DNA from: Ruminococcus sp. Phil11
GTDB taxonomy: Bacteria; Bacillota; Clostridia; Oscillospirales; Ruminococcaceae
Direction of reading: 5' to 3'
Assembly: GCA_001940925.1 (NCBI GenBank)
Contig: MSGZ01000042.1
Span: 190,970 to 254,969, forward strand
DNA: 64,000 bases
The notes beneath the pieces are model-generated. The model had not been told where the DNA came from and made no database searches. It saw nothing but the letters and a program-made list of their open reading frames with translations. Below are positions 7,877-51,925 of this stretch, one piece after another. Position numbers and translations under genes: made by a program. The stretch's first letter is position 1; each line of letters starts with the position of its first letter.

Positions 7877-7944
7877 GCGGACATTGTCCGCAGCCCCCGT
7901 TATACGGATATGAAAAGGACGCTGACAGCGATCAGCGTCCTTTT
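7877..7944 (+). repeat. R3 element, copy d (short form) with terminator
   Basis: Immediately after the permease stop, GCGGACA and TGTCCGC pair around one base (7877-7891), followed by CAGCCCCCGTTATACGG and the terminator at 7917. The string matches the end of the R3 copy at 50069-50219 (GGGGACA, T, TGTCCCC, then AGACCCCATTATG), but the paired arms carry different bases. Confidence 0.6.
7917..7944 (+). terminator. intrinsic terminator after ppk and permease
   Basis: GGACGCTGA (7917-7925) pairs perfectly with TCAGCGTCC (7932-7940), followed by TTTT. Confidence 0.85.
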
Positions 7945-7960
7945 ACTATTGATTATACTT

Positions 7961-8080
7961 CCGCCGTGCTTCAGCATTGGGAGAAGCAGCCTTTCAGAAG
8001 CCGCGATCAGCGGCGTGCAGAAATGAATATTGGGAGAGTCCGGCCGCCGGCTCCCGGAGGAAATCGCCAGCGGGGGCTCC
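7961..8080 (+). repeat. R1 element, copy a
   Basis: First of two adjacent copies exactly 120 bases apart. Core strings are GCTTCAGCATTGGGAG, GCCGCGATCAGCGGCGTGC (a hairpin), TTGGGAGAGTCCGGCCGCC and GGAAATCGCCAGCGGGGGC. No gene is visible in it. Confidence 0.8.
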
Positions 8081-8207
8081 CCGCCGCGCTTCAGCATTGG
8101 GAGATGCAGCCTTTCAGAAGCCGCGATCAGCGGCGTGCAGAAAAGAATGTTGGGAGTGTCCGGCCGCCAGTTTCCATAGGGAATCGCCGGCGCGGGCTCC
8201 GCGCACC
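8081..8207 (+). repeat. R1 element, copy b (tandem with copy a)
   Basis: Second unit of the 120-base tandem pair, with scattered substitutions. It ends at the stop codon of the leftward LRR-dockerin gene, so it lies in the 3' region of that transcript in inverse orientation. Confidence 0.8.
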
Positions 8208-15389: not shown

Positions 15390-15565
15390 CCGCAGCCGAT
15401 TCCCTCCGGGCGGGGAGCCCCCGCCGGCATTTCCCTCCGGGCGGGCAGTGCCCGCAGCCGATTCCCTCCGGGGACGGTGAGCGGAGAACTCCCAGTCAGC
15501 AAAGCACACGCCGCTAAAGCGGCTTTTGAAAGGTCACTGCTCCCAATGCTGAAGTGCGCCGAAGG
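15390..15565 (-). repeat. R1 element, copy c (inverse orientation, extended)
   Basis: Read on the minus strand it has CTTCAGCATTGGGAGCAG, a GCCGCTTTAGCGGCGTG hairpin and GGAGGGAATCGGCTGCGGG, the last module repeated. It also holds GCGGGCA-G-TGCCCGC (15442 region), a one-base-loop hairpin like those of R3. It lies between the activase stop and a terminator. Confidence 0.75.
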
Positions 15566-20868: not shown

Positions 20869-21018
20869 TGGGAGAAAAATAAAAAAGTGAAGAATGAAGA
20901 GTGAATAACGAAGAATGAATAACGGCGGTATCGCCTGCGGCGATTGATTTTGATATGCCCGAAGTGCACACCGCTGTTATTCACTCTTCACTATTCGTCA
21001 TTCACTATTCACTAAAAA
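20863..21018 (-). repeat. R2 element, copy 2 (upstream of tex promoter)
   Basis: Read on the minus strand it starts TTTTTTAGTGAATAGTGAA, has TGACGAATAGTGAAGAGTG near one end and inverted CTTCACTTTTTT near the other, then CTCCCATTGAAATTC. The order matches the copy before ppk. A fragment with two ACTATTCAC units occurs at about 21366-21392. Confidence 0.75.
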
Positions 21019-21035
21019 ATTATGATCGGTACGCT

Positions 21036-21163
21036 TCCGGCGCGCTTCAGCATTGGGAGAAGCGACCTTACAGAAGCCGCGATCAGCGGCGTGTGCTTGG
21101 CTGATTGGGAGCGTATCGCCTGCCGCCCCCGGATGGAATCGCCCGCGGGGGCTGCCCCGCCGC
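21036..21163 (+). repeat. R1 element, copy d
   Basis: GCTTCAGCATTGGGAGAAG, then GCCGCGATCAGCGGCGTG, GCTGATTGGGAGCGTATCGC, and GAATCGCCCGCGGGGGC. It is the first of four R1 copies in this long intergenic region. Confidence 0.8.
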
Positions 21164-21168
21164 AATTC

Positions 21169-21247
21169 CTGAGAGGAAACCACAAGAGAGGTGAGAGAGT
21201 GCTCCTTCGTCGCTTATTCTCTCCCCTCCCTTAAGGTTTCCTCTCAG
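21169..21247. repeat. 79-base inverted-repeat segment
   Basis: CTGAGAGGAAACC (21169-21181) is the perfect inverse complement of GGTTTCCTCTCAG (21235-21247). Inner purine-rich GAGAGGTGAGAGAG and pyrimidine-rich CTCTCCCCTCCC strings extend the pairing imperfectly. It lies between R1 copies and codes for nothing visible. Confidence 0.65.
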
Positions 21248-21410
21248 ACTCTCTTTCCTTATTCCTCCCCTCTCTTGCGTCGCTGCGCATACCTTTGTCT
21301 GTATGGCTGTTTTCAGTTCTGCGTTTCGTTTCGCTTCTCGCTGTAATAGGGGCATCTCCCGAAAATACTATTCACCATGCACTATTCACTGAAATCAGGA
21401 TTACCGGTAT
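21248..21410. other. intergenic stretch without recognised gene
   Basis: Pyrimidine-rich DNA, a fragment of R2 (about 21366-21392) and no frame with a ribosome site or family motif. Confidence 0.5.
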
Positions 21411-21480
21411 GCTGTCGGCGGGCTTCAGCATTGGGAGCAGTTATTCCAAAGCAGCCGCCCTGCGGTGCTGGCTCCGTGTA
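21411..21480 (+). repeat. R1 element, copy e (truncated)
   Basis: GGCTTCAGCATTGGGAGCAG and a GCCGCCCTGCGGTG hairpin are present; the later modules are missing. Confidence 0.65.
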
Positions 21481-21530
21481 CCCCTCCACCGCTTCGCGGT
21501 TCCCCTCCCCTTTCAGGGGAGGCTTGGGGA

Positions 21531-21650
21531 AAGCTTCAGCGTTGGGAGCAGTTACGCCAAAGAAGCCGCGATCAGCGGCGTGTACTTGGCAAATTGGGGG
21601 AGCATCGCCAACCGTCTCCGGAGGAAATCGCCCGCGCAGGCTCTGCGCCC
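21531..21650 (+). repeat. R1 element, copy f
   Basis: GCTTCAGCGTTGGGAGCAG, GCCGCGATCAGCGGCGTG, TTGGCAAATTGGGGGAGC and GGAAATCGCCCGCGCAGGC. It is nearly identical to copy g. Confidence 0.8.
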
Positions 21651-21664
21651 CTTTCAGGGGAGGC

Positions 21665-21790
21665 TCGCGGCGGGCTTCAGCGTTGGGAGAAGTTACGCCA
21701 AAGAAGCCGCGTTTAGCGGCGTGTACTTGGCAAATTGGGGGAGCATCGCCAACCGTCTCCGGAGGAAATCGCCCGCGGGGGCTCCCCGCT
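21665..21790 (+). repeat. R1 element, copy g
   Basis: Same order of modules as copy f, with the hairpin loop changed (GCCGCGTTTAGCGGC) while the arms are kept. Confidence 0.8.
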
Positions 21791-34900: not shown

Positions 34901-35896
34901 ATGAATGGAAAGATCATCGGCGGGACTTCGCTCCCGCATATCCCGTGGCAGGATAAGCCGGCAGGCTGCCGGGACGTCCTCTGGCGGTATACGGAAAACC
35001 CGGTCATCCGGAGAGACGCAGTCCCCTGCGCGAACAGCATCTTCAACAGTGCGGCCGTTCCGTTCGGTGACGGCTTTGCAGGCGTGTTCCGCGTCGATGA
35101 CAGAGCGCGCAATATGCAGCTTCATGCGGGTTTCTCAAAGGACGGCATTCACTGGGACATTCAGCCGGAGCGCATCGAATTTGTCCGGAACGATCCGGAG
35201 ATCCAGCCGTTCCAGTACGGCTATGACCCGCGTGTCTGCTTCATTGAAGACAGATATTATGTAACATGGTGCAACGCCCTCGACTGGAAGCCGACGATCG
35301 GCATGGCGTACACCTTCGATTTCAGGACGTTTTATCAGACTGAAAACGCATTTCTGCCGTTCAACCGCAACGGCGTCATGTTCCCGCGGAAGATCAACGG
35401 CATGTATATGATGCTCAGCCGCCCCTCGGACAGCGGGCATACCCCGTTCGGGGATATTTTCCTGTCGCAGTCGCCCGACCTCACCTTCTGGGGAAAGCAC
35501 CGCCATGTGATGTCCCCGCAGGCACCGTGGGAATCGACTAAGATCGGCGCGGGGCCTGTCCCGATCGAGACGGAGCGCGGCTGGCTGCTTTTTTATCACG
35601 GTGTTCTGACCTCATGCAACGGCTTTGTGTACAGCTTCTCGGCGGTGCTGCTTGACCGCGATGAACCGTGGAAGGTGCTCCGCCGCGGCAGAGAATATCT
35701 GCTCAGTCCGCAGAGGGATTACGAATGCGTCGGGGATGTGCCGAATGTGGTGTTCCCCTGCGCGGCACTGACCGATGCCGATACCGGCAGGATCGCGCTC
35801 TATTACGGCTGCGCGGATACCTGCACATCGCTCTGCTTCACGACCGTGGACGACGTCCTCGCATGGCTGGATGATTGCGGTATCGCTCCGCGATGA
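34901..35896 (+). CDS. GH130 beta-mannoside phosphorylase-like enzyme
   Basis: 331 residues, a five-bladed beta-propeller. [45 protein letters not shown] (the catalytic Asp region), RPSDSGH and [20 protein letters not shown] match GH130 mannosylglucose or mannooligosaccharide phosphorylases, which use phosphate to release mannose 1-phosphate inside the cell. It is probably the intracellular partner of the GH26 enzyme upstream. The ATG at 34901 follows AAGGCGGG. The last four codons (GIAPR) lie within the start of an R3 repeat, so the present stop may come from the repeat. Confidence 0.88.
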
Positions 35897-36036
35897 TTTG
35901 AAATGGGGCTCCGCCAAACATGAAGAAACTTGTTTCTTCATGTTGAACCCTGCCAAAGGGACACTGTCCCTTTGGAATCCCATTATGTATTACGGAACGG
36001 GTGCTGACAGATTCAGTCGGCACCTGTTTCTGTTTA
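35879..36036 (+). repeat. R3 element, copy a, with terminator
   Basis: It starts with GGTATCGCTCCGCGATGA in the GH130 3' end, then AAATGGGGCTCCGCC, a perfect hairpin of AACATGAAGAAAC (35917-35929) and GTTTCTTCATGTT (35932-35944), a second of CCAAAGGGACA (35953-35963) and TGTCCCTTTGG (35965-35975), then CCCATTATGTA and the terminator. Confidence 0.8.
36000..36036 (+). terminator. terminator after GH130
   Basis: GGTGCTGAC (36000-36008) pairs with GTCGGCACC (36016-36024), followed by TGTTTCTGTTT. Confidence 0.65.
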
Positions 36037-43696: not shown

Positions 43697-44326
43697 ATGA
43701 TACCGGCAATCGAACAGCACGATTCCGAAGGCCGCACGAAAAAGGCCAAACCGATCCAAAAGCACATTTCGGATGAAGCGATCATCCGCATGTTCACCGA
43801 ACGCCGGGAAGCGGCACTGCAGGAAACCGAAGCGCGGTACGGACAGATGAGCCGCAGGCTTGCATTCCGCATTCTGGGCGATCGACAGGATGCAGAGGAA
43901 TGCACGAACGATATGCTGATGCAGCTCTGGGACTCCATTCCGCCGACGATCCCGCATTCACTTCCTGCGTTCATTTCCGCATTGACCCGGAACATCGCGC
44001 TCAACCGCTACGAGGAGCGCAAGACCGCCAAACGCGGCGGCGGGCAGTATGCGGCTGCACTGGACGAGATTTCCCCGTTTCTTGCCGATCCCGGTCAGAA
44101 TGTTGAGGACAGCTTCACGGAGATCGCCCTGCGCGATGCACTGACCGCATTTCTCGGGACGCTGACGGCCGAAAACCGCCTGATCTTTCTGGCGCGGTTC
44201 TGGTCATTCCAGCCAATCGCCGAGATCGCGGCAGACCATAACATCAGCGTCGGCGCCGTGAAAATGTCACTCAGACGAACCAAGAACAAGCTCAGAAAAT
44301 ATCTCATGAAGGAGGGGCTGATATGA
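43697..44326 (+). CDS. ECF sigma factor
   Basis: 209 residues with the start at the ATG eight bases after AAAGGAGG. About 30 extra N-terminal residues precede region 2 (RRLAFRILGDRQDAEECTND, QLWDSIPPTIPHSLPAFISA, LTRNIALNRYEERKT); region 4 is LARFWSFQPIAEIAADHNIS then VGAVKMSLRRTKNKLRKYLM. The next gene overlaps by four bases. GGAAACGCGTTAC lies 85 bases upstream and is similar to a string before the ECF gene at 36 kb. Confidence 0.87.
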   Translation: MIPAIEQHDSEGRTKKAKPIQKHISDEAIIRMFTERREAALQETEARYGQMSRRLAFRILGDRQDAEECTNDMLMQLWDSIPPTIPHSLPAFISALTRNIALNRYEERKTAKRGGGQYAAALDEISPFLADPGQNVEDSFTEIALRDALTAFLGTLTAENRLIFLARFWSFQPIAEIAADHNISVGAVKMSLRRTKNKLRKYLMKEGLI

Positions 44327-45780
44327 AGCGCAGAGAAACCGTTTTTCTGAAAGCACTCGGCGATATCCCGCAGCCGTACATTGACGAGCTGACGCGGTTT
44401 CAGCAGGAGCAAGCCCCTGCATCCGCGGCAAAACCGAAGGCAGCCGCAGGGGATCATGCTGAGCCGCTGAATCAGAAGGAGCGATTTGGAATGAAGCATA
44501 CAGTACAGCAGTCAGCAGACAAGAACAGAGAAGCCGGGATCAATGTCAGAAAACTAAGACCTGTCACGATCGGCATTCTCGCGTCGCTTACCGCCTGCGC
44601 GGTGATCGCGGCAGGCTTCGGGACCGGCCTTTTCGGAAATGCGCCCGACCGTCTGCCGGGCTTCTCGCCGGAGCAGTCCGGTGCTGAGGTTCAGGCAGAA
44701 GAAGATGAGAACGCGCATACCGATGTGACCGAAGTGCCGGAAACGGATGAAGCATACGGCGATCCGGAAGGCGATCCGGAGGCCGGCGAAGTCAATGTTC
44801 AGGAGGAGCTGTTCTTCCCGGCGTTCTCCTGCTACGGCGACAACACGGAGACCGGCGGCATTCCGGAGATCCCGGAAAACGGCGCGACGCTCTTTACCTC
44901 AATGGACGATCTCCGTCCGCTGCTCGAACGCGCAGTCAATACCGACCTGCCGGTCAAGGGCGTTCAGCACACGGAAGGCCTCTTTGAGGACGGCGGCAGA
45001 GTTCTGGTCATCAAGGGCGCATGGGACCGGAAAAGCATTGACCACGAACTCCGTTCGATGTATCTCACCGCAGACGGTTATCTCCATGCAGACGTCGCGG
45101 CCTATCTCAATCTGAACTATGATGCCGGTATGCCGGATCACCTTACAAATTATTATATTCTCCTCGGTGTTCCGGCAAGCGTGGGGCAGATCAGCGGTGT
45201 ATCCGTGCAGGAGACGCTGTTTGTCTCCGAAGGGACAGCCGAAGCGGATCCGATCGAAGCCGAATTCCGTCAGGGCTATGATTACGCCTATTCGATGAAG
45301 CGTCTTGCAAACAATGATGCGGATTACATCTTCCCGGAGACGACCTACGAGTTCTATTCCGCGGAGGATCTTGACAGCAACAGCGCATGGAATATCGGCA
45401 GCATGTGGGTAATGATGCCCGATGCAGGCAGCGGTCTGCCGCAGTTCCTCTCCGATCAGACAGACAGCATCGTGCAGGAACAGCTTGCTGCAGGCGGCAA
45501 TGCGGTCATCGGCACGAACAGCGTGCAGAACGGCACGGCTCCGTTCATCGCAGTCTATAACAGCATGACCGACAGCAGCGATCCGCGCCGCCTCGTGTAC
45601 CCGGAGCAGCATTATGCTGAGGTGATGACCTCCGGCACCCGCCTGACAATCCTGTGTTCATCCGAACTGTCAAAGGATGCACAGATGACCGCGCCGCCCG
45701 AGGACATCATAAACCCCGACAGCAATCTGCCGCATACCGAAGGTCACGGCTCGATGCTCGCGATCGTCAACGGCCGGTGA
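44323..45780 (+). CDS. ECF-associated membrane protein (anti-sigma-like)
   Basis: 485 residues. A cytoplasmic N-terminus of about 80 residues (FLKALGDIPQPYIDELTRFQ), one helix at about 90 (GILASLTACAVIAAGFGTGL), an acidic linker (TEVPETDEAYGDPEGDPEAG) and a C-terminal extracellular domain of about 320 residues unlike any family I know. Translation is coupled to the sigma gene (ATGA). Likely the regulator of that sigma factor. Confidence 0.7.
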   Translation: MKRRETVFLKALGDIPQPYIDELTRFQQEQAPASAAKPKAAAGDHAEPLNQKERFGMKHTVQQSADKNREAGINVRKLRPVTIGILASLTACAVIAAGFGTGLFGNAPDRLPGFSPEQSGAEVQAEEDENAHTDVTEVPETDEAYGDPEGDPEAGEVNVQEELFFPAFSCYGDNTETGGIPEIPENGATLFTSMDDLRPLLERAVNTDLPVKGVQHTEGLFEDGGRVLVIKGAWDRKSIDHELRSMYLTADGYLHADVAAYLNLNYDAGMPDHLTNYYILLGVPASVGQISGVSVQETLFVSEGTAEADPIEAEFRQGYDYAYSMKRLANNDADYIFPETTYEFYSAEDLDSNSAWNIGSMWVMMPDAGSGLPQFLSDQTDSIVQEQLAAGGNAVIGTNSVQNGTAPFIAVYNSMTDSSDPRRLVYPEQHYAEVMTSGTRLTILCSSELSKDAQMTAPPEDIINPDSNLPHTEGHGSMLAIVNGR

Positions 45781-45796
45781 TACACATAGATAATGT

Positions 45797-45893
45797 GGTA
45801 TCTGCGATGCATCCAAAATGGGGACTCCGTCCCCAAGCCCCTGCCGGGGATATTATCCCCGGACCCCATGATAAATCATCGCGCAGCGATACC
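45797..45893 (+). repeat. R3 element, copy c
   Basis: It starts with GGTATCTGCGATGCATCC and AAAATGGGG, has hairpins GGGGAC-TCC-GTCCCC (45820-45834) and CCGGGGATA-T-TATCCCCGG (45844-45862), then ACCCCATGATAA. It ends in GCGCAGCGATACC, nearly the inverse of its first bases, so this copy is bounded by terminal inverted repeats. Confidence 0.75.
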
Positions 45894-45908
45894 TTTTTCG
45901 ACAAACAG

Positions 45909-45938
45909 AGAGACCGGCTTCGCGCCGGTCTCTGTTTT
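45909..45938. terminator. bidirectional terminator between convergent genes
   Basis: AGAGACCGGC (45909-45918) and GCCGGTCTCT (45924-45933) with a five-base loop, then GTTTTTA. Confidence 0.85.
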
Positions 45939-47500
45939 TATGCTTCGGGTTGTGCGGTCAGATAACGGAGAAGCTGACGGGCGTCCTCCGCCTTCCGTTC
46001 GCCGTCGCCGTTCCAGTCAGCGGCAGGCAGACAGAGGTCATCGCGTTCGCTGCCGGACAAGACCTGTTTCAGCAGCGACAGGTCAGCCGCATTGACGAAG
46101 CCGTCGCGGTTCAGGTCGCCGGGGATGTAAGCTTCTGATTCGCCCTCATACGCCGTATACACATGAATGCAGACATCGCCGTATCCCTTGTCAAAGCAGT
46201 CCTTCCACTCCCGCATTTTTGTTTCACCGTAAACTGCATAGAAAGAAACGCCCTTCTTCCAGCATGCAGAATCCTTATATACATAATACTGCTTTCCGAT
46301 CGGCAGCCGGATGATCACAGAATACAGCTGCCCTGCCCCTGCCGCAAAGTGCTGCGGCAGGCTGACCGTATGGAAACCGGCGTATTCCGCGCACCAGTCA
46401 AACTGTTCGATCAATGTTCCGTCCTGAGGATCCGTAAAATCAGCATCCAGCGCATAAACGGAGATCTGACAGAATTCAGACGGCAGATTCGTAAAGAATC
46501 CGACTGCAGTGATCGTTTCTTCTTTTTCTGCCTGAAACACATTCGCCATGTACATTCCGTTTTGCTCATTGGACGCAAAAAGCGTGCTTAAATCAGAACA
46601 ATTATAATGATACACATTCGCGTAATTCGTCACGGGCTCAAAATCCAGGTGATAGAACATCTGGATCGAAGGCTCATAATAGCTCATATAAAAATATTCG
46701 TTTCCGTTTTTGATACGCGCCGACTGGCTGTCACGGATGATCCATGCGCCGTCACCGAGCGGCTGATCATTGAAATTCTCTTTGGCAAAGCTGTCGTCCC
46801 ATCCGACGACAACAACATCATGCAGCATTCCGTTCAGGGTATCCTGTTCCTTGCATTCTGCGTAATCTGCATTGTAATAACCGTGCTGTGCTGAGATCGG
46901 ATCATCATGCGAATTATAATACATCAGGACGATCGGCCCTTTTTCAGCGATCTTGGCCTTGACTGTCTGCGGCTCATCCAGAGGATAGCTTTCTGTATTC
47001 TGAAGATGCGCAATCGACTGATAACGCATCGACTCATCCAGCGGCTGCATATCCGCATGGGATGCAGCATCGCTTTCCGGTATCACGCCCTGCCATGCAG
47101 CGAGTGCGGTAACTGCAGCTTTCACCGAACCGGTATCACGATAGCCTTCGATGCCCTCATTGTGTCCGCCGCCGTAACGAGGATCATCCGGGTCGGTCGG
47201 GGAGCCCTGACATTCCGTAAACCAGATCAGATGTGATTCCGAAAGGTCAATGCTGCAGTCCGCAATTTCTTTTTTGATCAGATTTGCTTCCGCGCAGGTG
47301 ATCGTCGAATACGCCCAGCAGGTGTTGCCGATCTGCGCCTTGACCGGTGTTATGATCTCCGGTGCTTCCTCGCGCCAGTCAAAATGCGCGGGCAGTTCTG
47401 TTTCCTCTGCGGCAAACGTCTGCGCGGTCAGTCCGGCGCCGCAGAGCGTACAGCACAGCAAGGCAGCTGTCAATCTGCATAACCTTGTTTTGTGTTCCAA
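45938..47500 (-). CDS. C1 (papain-like) peptidase with lectin-like and dockerin domains, copy 1
   Basis: 520 residues from a TTG seven bases after AGGAGG. Signal peptide to about 30; papain fold with Cys61 in AQIGNTCWAYST and His227 in MLHDVVVVGWDDS. At the place of the conserved Asn (NSWG) stands Asp257 (IIRDSQSA), so the catalytic triad is altered. A lectin-like beta domain follows (about 270-450) and a type I dockerin (IPGDLNRDGFVNAADLSLLK, then ADWNGDGERKAEDARQLLRY). It lies 11 bases after a paralogue in the same operon. Activity is uncertain because of the Asn change. Confidence 0.85.
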   Translation of the reverse strand: MEHKTRLCRLTAALLCCTLCGAGLTAQTFAAEETELPAHFDWREEAPEIITPVKAQIGNTCWAYSTITCAEANLIKKEIADCSIDLSESHLIWFTECQGSPTDPDDPRYGGGHNEGIEGYRDTGSVKAAVTALAAWQGVIPESDAASHADMQPLDESMRYQSIAHLQNTESYPLDEPQTVKAKIAEKGPIVLMYYNSHDDPISAQHGYYNADYAECKEQDTLNGMLHDVVVVGWDDSFAKENFNDQPLGDGAWIIRDSQSARIKNGNEYFYMSYYEPSIQMFYHLDFEPVTNYANVYHYNCSDLSTLFASNEQNGMYMANVFQAEKEETITAVGFFTNLPSEFCQISVYALDADFTDPQDGTLIEQFDWCAEYAGFHTVSLPQHFAAGAGQLYSVIIRLPIGKQYYVYKDSACWKKGVSFYAVYGETKMREWKDCFDKGYGDVCIHVYTAYEGESEAYIPGDLNRDGFVNAADLSLLKQVLSGSERDDLCLPAADWNGDGERKAEDARQLLRYLTAQPEA

Positions 47501-49911: not shown

Positions 49912-50045
49912 CGGTATCGCTCCGCGCGGGCAGTGCCCGCAGCCGTTTTCCTCCGGGGACGGTGAGCGAACCGCTCCCAGCTTTCGCAATGCACGCCGCT
50001 AAAGCGGCTTCTGAAAGGTTACTGCTCCCAATGCTGAAGCCCGCC
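49912..50045 (-). repeat. R1 element, copy h (inverse orientation)
   Basis: On the minus strand GCTTCAGCATTGGGAGCAG, GCCGCTTTAGCGGCGTGC and the GGGAGCGGTTCGCTCACC module are read. It begins with GCGGTATCGCTCCGCG, the same string that opens R3 copy a. Confidence 0.75.
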
Positions 50046-50068
50046 GCAAATAACACAAAAAAATCAGA

Positions 50069-50112
50069 ATCAAAAAATGGACGCCGATCATAATATCCGC
50101 GTCCATTTCTTT
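50069..50112. terminator. terminator after the S41 membrane protease operon (and the lipoprotein gene)
   Basis: AAATGGACGC (50075-50084) and GCGTCCATTT (50099-50108) with inner GAT/ATC pairing; T runs on the minus strand side, and TTTC on the plus side. Confidence 0.75.
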
Positions 50113-50219
50113 ATACACATAATGGGGTCTGGGGACAATGTCCCCAGCGGGGCTCAACTTGAAGAAACAAGTTTCTTCATGTTTAGGCGGAGCCCCATTT
50201 TGAATGCATCGCAGATACC
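50113..50219 (-). repeat. R3 element, copy b
   Basis: Read in the direction of the S41 gene it begins at the stop codon with GCGGTATCTGCGATGCATTC and AAAATGGGGCTCCGCC, then a hairpin of AACATGAAGAAAC and GTTTCTTCAAGTT, then CTGGGGACA-T-TGTCCCCAG and ACCCCATTATG, and leads into the terminator at 50069. Confidence 0.8.
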
Positions 50220-50221
50220 GC

Positions 50222-51925
50222 TTACTGTTCCAGCATCTCCCGTGCCTTGTCCATGAGATAGTCGCGGCCTTCGTCAAACAGCGCGCGGATCGCTTCTCCG
50301 TCAAACGGAATGATCTCCACGCCGTCCCCGTCGCCGCTCTGGCGGTCAATACCCGAGTCGATCGCAATATCGCCGTTTTCGTCAAGCACGACGCAGTTCG
50401 AGAACGAGACCGTTCCGCATTCTCCAGCCTTCATGCCGACTGCCTGCGACGAGCCGTTCGGCTCCGTGAAGCCGATCACGGTCACATTCTCAAGGCCTTC
50501 CATTTCCTTTGTCATGATGTCTCCCGCGCTGACCGTCGCGGAATCGACCAGCACGATGATGCGCCCGTCCCCGAGCAGCTGCTCCCCCTGATACACGATA
50601 TCATTGCCCTTGACATACCGGCCGGACGCGTCCTTTGCCCAGCAGTGGTTCTGCTCGTCCCAGACACAGTTCGTCAGGCAATAATGCTCCCCCTTCGGCG
50701 CGAACATTGCCGTCACGCCGTTGACCATGTGCGGAGAGCCGCCCTCATTGCCGCGCAGGTCAATGATGACGTCCTTGACCCCGTCCTGCTGATATTCGAG
50801 GATCTGCTGCCGGATCTCGTTTTTCATCTCGTCATAGGCGTCATCGTCCGCGGAGTTGTAGGACTTCATGTCAAAGCTCATGCCCTTGATGCGCAGGCAG
50901 GCTGTTGTCCTGCTGATGCGCTTCCACATCAGATTGCCTGTTTCCACGCTCTGACCGACCGTTTTCACCGTACCGGTCAGGCGGTCGAGATAATCGCCGC
51001 ACTGCGGAAGGACGGCGGTCTGCTCCGCGCCGTTCTCATCGAGATAGGTCACGGTCACGCTGTCCCCGCCGACGCCCGCACAGAGCACGCCGCTCCAGAA
51101 GATCTCGTTGTCAATGTCGGGATAACTGCCCATGATGAGCGTCAGTTCTTCCTTTTCTTCATCGTATACGAAGAAATTGACGTCATAGAGCGGTGCGGTC
51201 CTGCTCACTTCATCAGGCGATCTGCCGTCCCATGCCGTAATGACGGTACCGTTGCGGATGCCGTACTCTGCAAGGCTTTCGTCGGTATTCACCGCAGCAA
51301 AACTGCCGTCTGAGCAGCGCATCAGCGAAAGACCGTAATCATGGCCGAGTGCCTCGCGGATCGCCTGATTGGCAGGAGCCATGTCCTCTTTGATGCTGTA
51401 GGTATAGCCGACATGACCGTCGTGGAACTCACCGCAGAATGCGCCCCATGTCAGCAGATTGGCTCCTGCGTCCTGTGTGCGGTCGATCTCCGCGAATTTC
51501 GGCTGATACTTCGCATAAAGCGCGTCCCAGTCAATGCCCTTGTGATCGGTCAGCACATAATGCTCCCGCATACAGGCGGAGAGTTTCTCAAAGTCGCCGA
51601 GATAATCCTTTGCACGGTACCGCGGATTCAGCAGGCAGACCGGCACACTCAGCAACATACAGGCCGCGCCCGCTGCCGCCAGTCTGCGGCGGATGCCGGA
51701 TAATTCCGTGAAGAATCCGAGTGCCGCGATCACTGCGCCGAGATACAGCGGCAGCAGCGAGACGGTCAGGCCGTGCTTGGAAACACCGATCGCAAGCAGC
51801 GGCACGATCAGCCAAAATATTTTCCATTTTGTGCTTTTGACGCGGTCTGCATAGCCTGCCAGCCAGAACAGTCCCCCGCAGGCGGCAGCACAGACGCCTA
51901 CCGCGATGATATCCATCATCTTCAT
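50222..51925 (-). CDS. membrane S41-family peptidase-like protein
   Basis: 567 residues. Three N-terminal helices (about 5-95) anchor it, then a PDZ-like region and an S41 core: IIDLRGNEGGSPHMVNGV, LVDSATVSAGDIMTK with the presumed nucleophile Ser, and FTEPNGSSQAVG where the Lys of Ctp proteases would be expected but is not obvious. It is the last gene of the leftward set with two ABC permeases, an ATPase and a two-component system, so it may act on the exported substrate or on envelope proteins. The start follows AAAGGAGG. Confidence 0.75.
   Translation of the reverse strand: MKMMDIIAVGVCAAACGGLFWLAGYADRVKSTKWKIFWLIVPLLAIGVSKHGLTVSLLPLYLGAVIAALGFFTELSGIRRRLAAAGAACMLLSVPVCLLNPRYRAKDYLGDFEKLSACMREHYVLTDHKGIDWDALYAKYQPKFAEIDRTQDAGANLLTWGAFCGEFHDGHVGYTYSIKEDMAPANQAIREALGHDYGLSLMRCSDGSFAAVNTDESLAEYGIRNGTVITAWDGRSPDEVSRTAPLYDVNFFVYDEEKEELTLIMGSYPDIDNEIFWSGVLCAGVGGDSVTVTYLDENGAEQTAVLPQCGDYLDRLTGTVKTVGQSVETGNLMWKRISRTTACLRIKGMSFDMKSYNSADDDAYDEMKNEIRQQILEYQQDGVKDVIIDLRGNEGGSPHMVNGVTAMFAPKGEHYCLTNCVWDEQNHCWAKDASGRYVKGNDIVYQGEQLLGDGRIIVLVDSATVSAGDIMTKEMEGLENVTVIGFTEPNGSSQAVGMKAGECGTVSFSNCVVLDENGDIAIDSGIDRQSGDGDGVEIIPFDGEAIRALFDEGRDYLMDKAREMLEQ

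Follow-up and report, generated by a model that had tools for sequence, protein, structure and literature searches.

A large family of stop-to-terminator hairpins in one Ruminococcus-like genus, probably MITEs of an IS1182-type system that targets terminators

The hairpins that separate stop codon from terminator at several gene ends of a 64,000-nucleotide stretch from Ruminococcus sp. Phil11 (the window, taken at its full length) belong to a large family of short repeats, present in one Ruminococcus-like genus of the rumen and gut. It is likely that this family is made of IS1182-type MITEs targeting terminators, and that the window's stop-abutting copies are shortened derivatives of such elements. 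In this case an IS1182-type system seems to seek out intrinsic terminators and to copy them, a low-cost choice of target in that the host gene stays terminated. It is worth emphasizing that gene ends, with their stop codons, C-termini and terminators, are remodelled between close species, and that covarying, perfectly paired palindromes of 3′ UTRs can stem from the dynamics of mobile elements rather than from selection on RNA.

Copies in the window and extent of the family

An earlier note on this DNA had reported four copies, at 7877, 35879, 45797 and, on the minus strand, 50219, and all four are present as described. Their parts, with scores from a covariance model (window, filters off), are as follows.

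35879..35987, plus strand: headline copy, stop-abutting form, 66.0 bits; A hairpin 35882-35894, B 35901-35915, C hairpin 35917-35944, D palindrome 35953-35975, connector AATCCCATTATG 35976-35987
35996..36026, plus strand: terminator hairpin 3′ of the headline copy, GGnnGCTGA..TCGGCnnCC type
45783..45908, plus strand: near-complete palindromic copy, 71.2 bits; outer-repeat-like left remnant 45783-45796, A 45797-45814, B 45820-45834, D 45844-45862, A′ 45877-45893, right outer-repeat remnant 45894-45908 (reverse complement CTGTTTGTCGAAAAA)
45909..45933, no strand: terminator hairpin abutting the right outer-repeat remnant of the 45797 copy
50118..50219, minus strand: stop-abutting copy with C module, 72.4 bits; A from 50219, D 50147-50129, connector to 50118
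50077..50106, minus strand: terminator hairpin 3′ of the 50219 copy, read by eye
7877..7903, plus strand: reduced copy, with D-like palindrome GCGGACATTGTCCGC 7877-7891 and AGCCCCCGTTAT
7917..7940, plus strand: terminator hairpin 3′ of the 7877 copy, of the shared GGACGCTGA type

Along the gene, the unit consists of stop codon, A, B, optional C, D, CCCCATTATG and terminator, in this order. Module A is a hairpin such as ATCGC-TTC-GCGAT, B the hairpin GGGGC-TCC-GCCCC, C, where present, AACATGAAGAAAC-TT-GTTTCTTCATGTT, and D a perfect palindrome, for example CTGGGGACA-T-TGTCCCCAG, CTGGGGACTAGTCCCCAG or CCAAAGGGACA-C-TGTCCCTTTGG. The one-base loop ascribed earlier to these hairpins is correct at the level of the DNA palindrome, the fold predicted for the RNA having a loop of 3 nt. 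AAATGGGGCTCCG is exact in two window copies, and a third carries an additional A. The 7877 copy, devoid of A and B, scores 19.6 bits (E 0.026, same settings), and the 45797 copy alone, among those of the window, has A ends in inverted orientation (A, A′) and remnants of the outer repeat.

The statement that all copies begin at a stop codon or within a few bases of it has to be nuanced. It is right for the 50219 copy, 3 nt past the stop (50224-50222) of the minus-strand gene 50222-51925, and wrong for the 45797 copy, which starts 17 nt past the stop ending at 45780; the headline copy contains the stop. Indeed, it supplies the TGA (35894-35896) of a GH130 gene (34901-35896). As the element begins with GGTATC at 35879, the protein ends in an element-coded ...GIAPR*, read from module A, here and in the close congener G024, the majority of the GH130 orthologues compared terminating in ...HSQV* or similar. 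The named relatives at this locus are mostly MAGs of ruminant and other gut Oscillospiraceae/Ruminococcus. The hairpin 45909..45933 is flanked by convergent genes, 44323-45780 on the plus strand and 45938-47461 on the minus strand; the product of the latter combines papain-like protease, lectin-like and dockerin domains, and the host may, on the strength of this dockerin-bearing protease, be a fibre degrader of the cellulosome type. A second dispersed repeat (GCTTCAGCATTGGGAG..AGCCGC) lies 3′ of several gene ends (window 7961-8200, 15507-15561, 21009-21786, 49992-50046).

Within the window alone, the count of AAATGGGGCTCCG with two mismatches does not rise above chance (2 found against 1.97 expected), so that the case rests on genome-wide counts. 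In the whole genome GGGACANTGTCCC occurs at 45 places (0 for the reversed-pattern control) and AATGGGGCTCCGCC, with at most one mismatch, at 41 (control 1). The covariance-model search that had been proposed was run with a model, R1, built from 33 copies and carrying the B and D pairs only. It gave at least 108 matches at E≤1 in the window's own genome, at least 98 of them with 32 bits or more, these being lower bounds as 150 of 827 first-look candidates were scored. Scoring at most 75 candidates per genome under stricter filters, we found matches at E≤0.001 in 26 of 29 congeners, three being without the element, and in none of 31 genomes of other genera. GGGGACANTGTCCCC was present in a single one of 119 genomes drawn from the bacterial family, the window's own. 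A symmetric A..A′ arrangement was rare in the first copy set: a recognisable A′ lay at most 90 nt downstream in 3 of 179 copies, the 45797 copy among them. Rfam 15, at its gathering threshold, recognised a single tRNA in the window and made no match to the element, and no earlier description of the family was recognised in the literature searched, the reach of which left out most subscription journals.

Complete copies, their hairpin targets and an IS1182-type relative

The architecture of the family becomes apparent in the congeners, where complete copies read outer repeat CAGnnTGTnGAnAAAG, A, B, D, spacer, D′, B′, A′, outer repeat. Many copies in these other genomes lie away from a stop codon, preceded by CAGnnTGTnGAnAAAG placed directly 3′ of a terminator hairpin. 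A stem of at least 7 bp ends within 3 nt of 63 of the 68 distinct CAGnnTGTnGAnAAAG sites, against 64 of 340 random positions; with a stem of 8 bp the figures are 61 of 68 and 33 of 340. The earlier idea of a small mobile element tolerated only at gene ends is thus better put as targeting, since the outer repeat sits directly on the hairpin.

At 8 of 20 loci the local hairpin is repeated exactly and in direct orientation, over 15-30 nt, on both sides of the element, and among mismatched left and right pairs, taken as a control, 0 of 380 reach 14 nt. All eight loci are in one congener, G022 (8 of its 10 loci), where the duplication is an exact copy of the local terminator at which the element landed; no such duplicate was seen at the 10 loci of G004 and G029, some of which have two unlike hairpins on their two sides. 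Considering end pairs in all the loci fetched, 7 of 15 have repeats of 24-32 nt that touch both ends exactly, and these seven comprise five copies of the element, an element with another interior (L410, in G008) and the IS described below. The arrangement is best seen in a whole copy of 231 nt (L440), which reads hairpin, outer repeat, A-B-D, spacer, D′-B′-A′, outer repeat and the same 32-nt hairpin. Elsewhere (L357, 1440-2080) two complete copies stand in tandem, 289 nt apart, with terminator hairpins in common. The same outer repeat encloses other interiors at L396, L397, L403, L405 and L410, which represent additional MITE types belonging to this system.

In G008 the outer repeat occurs at 137 sites, mostly near contig ends (the reversed control matched once in nine genomes), an abundance that suggests recent amplification, as expected of young high-copy repeats. 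Very many copies of the element itself are found at contig ends in G018 and G008, whose assemblies these repeats seem to break.

The same outer repeat lies 5′ of a transposase gene. The transposase of G025 belongs to the IS1182 family (NCBIfam NF033551, 331.6 bits for a cut-off of 270) and contains Pfam DUF772 and DDE domains. With a transposase protein as query, 6 of 30 genomes of the genus are matched at E≤1e-10, the window's genome retaining only a remnant of 82 residues; with the IS1182 family model, 11 of 30 are matched at E≤1e-5 and 2 of 30 lie above the curated cut-off, all being counts on drafts. G007 carries an IS about 1.64 kb long that ends in CAGCTTGTCGAAAAAG and CAGACTGTCCATAAAG and shows an exact 28-nt duplicate of a hairpin, and the right ends of IS fragments adjoin hairpins in G022, G029 and G003 (L458, L455, L463); no hairpin was apparent at a glance at the right end of the fragment at L469. 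In G004 an IS1182 left end (L418, from 1500) is followed by what resembles, by eye, the beginning of a group II intron.

MITE and IS have closely similar, not identical, ends. Terminal inverted repeats, expected of an IS1182 MITE, are present in the complete copies of congeners, the window copies carrying remnants at most; a transposase exists in the genus; and a shared target with duplication is found in the MITE copies of G022 and in the IS of G007, and was not seen in the copies of G004 and G029. The sparseness of transposase matches across the genus, above all in those genomes in which the enzyme would be expected to be most active, slightly lowers our confidence. G008, which has the most outer-repeat sites, gave no IS1182 transposase match at E≤1e-5 in its draft, G022 has a C-terminal fragment only, at a contig edge, and with the family model the window's genome shows the remnant and two weaker matches. 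As a repeated IS may be lost from draft assemblies, the want of a complete transposase in G008 and G022 is to be read with care.

Comparison of the same gene between genomes adds to the picture. One gene exists in both forms, as stop, spacer, hairpin, outer repeat and A in G008, and as stop directly followed by A in the window's genome and in G024. At another (L389), the hairpin bears the element in G022, and the window's genome and G024 have a terminator by itself. The 45797 site itself is empty in G024, where the terminator hairpin stands alone. Of the two possibilities raised at the outset, an element of the 3′ UTR for mRNA stability or a mobile element, the second has gained ground from the empty orthologous sites, the terminal inverted repeats, the exact duplication of terminator hairpins and the close similarity of the ends to those of an IS1182-family element; the first is not supported by the argument then offered for it.

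The element is most likely non-autonomous and moved in trans by an IS1182-family transposase. This enzyme would recognise the ends common to MITE and IS and join them at the foot of terminator hairpins, an operation that would duplicate the hairpin and leave the upstream gene with its terminator. Stop-abutting copies, the prevailing form in the window's genome, would be derivatives shortened by loss of the left spacer, hairpin and outer repeat, usually of the right half as well, the downstream terminator having stayed. The sharp left edge that some 80 copies show at the stop codon lies outside what random shortening predicts, and the same-gene links between the two forms amount to one.

Placement at gene ends, module exchange and selection on RNA

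Random placement of the copies, which the earlier note had named as an observation that would count against its proposal, was looked for and not seen. The stop of a sense gene lies near A in 84 of 98 matches, to be compared with 399 of 1973 random intergenic positions, and a mirrored antisense gene is found in 6 of 98; the gene caller was home-made, which may explain some matches that lack an upstream gene. For 63 of the 84, AATG lies 19-28 nt from the stop, which means that A begins almost at the stop, and in 16 the element itself contains the stop. Most stop-abutting copies have A beginning 0-5 nt past the stop, with the proviso that these gaps were measured automatically, that the stop assigned to the headline copy is out of the gene frame and that one listed copy is degenerate. 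In stretches from congeners, picked from the top-scoring matches, a sense stop is found for 45 of 94 testable copies and a mirrored antisense stop for 9 of 94. Single stop-abutting copies make up 82 of 98 in the window's genome, 48 of 55 in G024 and 40 of 94 testable copies in the other congeners. Placement at stops is therefore strongest in the window's genome and in G024.

Terminators of one common family lie within 70 nt 3′ of 46 of the 98 copies. The type GGnnGCTGA..TC(A/G)GCnnCC (window 7917-7940, 35996-36026 and 50077-50106) recurs 3′ of many genes, with and without the element, and 22 element-free matches were found in L094-L172, some within coding sequence; it looks like a separate repeat family.

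In the fetched stretches of G024 we could match 39 of 75 queried gene ends of the window's genome. Read by eye, as the automatic flag for presence of the element was unreliable there, these 39 sites comprise about 32 that are occupied at the same stop, 5 empty ones, a truncated one and one at a contig end; shared sites are over-represented, most G024 stretches having been selected around its elements. In the 37 pairs with an element in both genomes, gene ends have a median identity of 0.95 and elements one of 0.81, the best paralogue of the own genome reaching 0.89; for 12 of the 37, the closest match in G024 is the orthologous element. The two partners carry different module classes in 28 of 37 pairs (A in 8 of 33 classifiable, B in 12 of 24, C in 8 of 37, D in 13 of 32), rough counts in that the classifier was made of regular expressions and misses some C modules (e.g. 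C12_67747). At the GH130 site of G024 the terminator hairpin 35996..36026 is retained, with C missing and D different. An exchange of hairpin modules between copies in place is thus shown in part, and it may have proceeded by ectopic recombination and by correction of imperfect palindromes. One might go further and see in the stop-abutting form a second, still mobile state, in which hairpins replace hairpins in place in the structure-dependent manner modelled for IS1272, the whole 3′ end of a gene, from stop through terminator, forming an exchangeable cassette, the modules of which are replaced between closely related species. We regard this extension as doubtful; if true, the swapping of cassettes rewrites protein C-termini and mRNA 3′ ends.

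The covariation of the stems is real. The earlier note had taken pairing kept while bases change as an argument for selection on RNA structure: the observation stands, but it does not carry the argument, as B and D are without an excess of G.U pairs and some of the variation comes from hairpins replaced as a whole. Stem classes of unequal length caused MAFFT to misalign the D arms, and pairs were therefore counted hairpin by hairpin, not from that alignment. Among distinct stems of B and D, in 249 copies under stricter score limits, G.U stands to A.C as 11:9, mismatched pairs being rare, against 61:14 in the hairpins of the downstream terminator region (Fisher p 0.021), a comparison set made of the best hairpin downstream of each element, some members of which are non-terminators; a previous, smaller count on 179 copies had given 12:10 against 53:12. 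For module A the ratio is 9:3, a small count. Selection on RNA is only partly supported: the covariation of B and D, on numbers that are small, does not bear its mark on the sense strand, and would fit copying or correction of the palindromes as DNA.

This bears directly on the proposal that the family is a 3′-UTR RNA element under selection, whose hairpins shield the 3′ end of the mRNA or hold up ribosomes at termination. The sense placement immediately past the stop speaks for it, as do the strong predicted RNA fold of the headline copy (z -7.3) and the retention of positions across species though modules change. Furthermore, PMC12306157 reports ribosome stalling by E. coli REPs located at most 15 nt from a stop, and by analogy the stop-abutting copies may exert an RNA effect on the upstream gene. 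Yet G.U pairs are not in excess, sites are empty by eye in 5 of 39 cases, Rfam has no match, and those copies of congeners that lie beyond the terminator would fall outside the mature 3′ UTR. We consider it unlikely that selection of this kind accounts for the family.

Another scenario inverts the order of events. A stop-to-terminator cassette would have come first, spreading by recombination between gene ends, and an IS1182-type element would later have taken two copies as its interior. The dominance of single stop-abutting copies in the window's genome and in G024, the coincidence of the unit with the 3′ UTR and the terminator family common to 46 of 98 copies are what it would lead one to expect. 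It fits badly with copies that have no common left homology beyond the stop, with the outer-repeat remnants retained on both sides of the 45797 copy and with three congeners devoid of any element, and we think it improbable. Finally, an origin as REP/BIME moved by a RAYT (REP-associated tyrosine transposase, IS200/IS605 type) is hardly credible: the short palindromic mosaic repeats in more than 90 copies, with inverted pairs and some supplying stops, do recall the GTAG REPs as presented in the part of PMC3733652 used here, but Y1_Tnp (PF01797) is absent from the window's genome and present in 3 of 30 congeners, one of which (G015) is without elements, no GTAG/CGTC tag was seen by eye at the ends of the listed copies, which are GGTATC, GGTGTC or GGTGCC, and hairpin duplication with IS1182-like ends fits a DDE transposase.

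Relation to known systems

Reading the family as IS1182-type MITEs invites comparison with other elements that settle near gene ends. According to ISfinder, target duplications of IS1182 are variable. Group IIC introns insert, like the present elements, at intrinsic terminators; they are ribozyme/RT elements without target duplication, unlike what is observed here.

The RUP, BOX and SPRITE of pneumococci are likewise MITE-like repeats of a Firmicute, SPRITE being described as terminator-like (PMC10969869), a likeness of description only; hairpin duplication, found here, goes unmentioned for the pneumococcal repeats in the portion of that article considered. With the REP/BIME of E. coli and the GTAG/CGTC REPs, as portrayed in the relevant parts of PMC12306157 and PMC3733652, the family shares many short palindromes arranged in mosaics near stops, sometimes supplying the stop. 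It differs from them in having neither RAYT nor GTAG/CGTC tag, in being nearly always in sense orientation in the window's genome, and in its DDE-type ends and target duplication. The mechanism outlined in PMC11702846 was set aside, being a different one.

The closest counterparts are IS1272 and TnSha1 of staphylococci, members of the IS1182 family which, in the passages of PMC5678879 and PMC4923244 that we rely on, target hairpins, several of them confirmed terminators, with no primary sequence preference, and delete the hairpin wholly or partly, with no target duplication. A transposase of the IS1182 family and a hairpin target are thus common to both systems. Here, by contrast, the whole hairpin is duplicated, not deleted, and the bulk of the copies are MITEs whose interior, made of stacked palindromes, is unrelated. 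In the passages used, PMC5678879 names hairpin duplication only as a possible branch of its model of stem-loop transposition, and this branch, proposed and unproven, would become directly testable. Hairpin targeting by IS1272, from the same IS family, is already published; what is new is the duplication of the hairpin.
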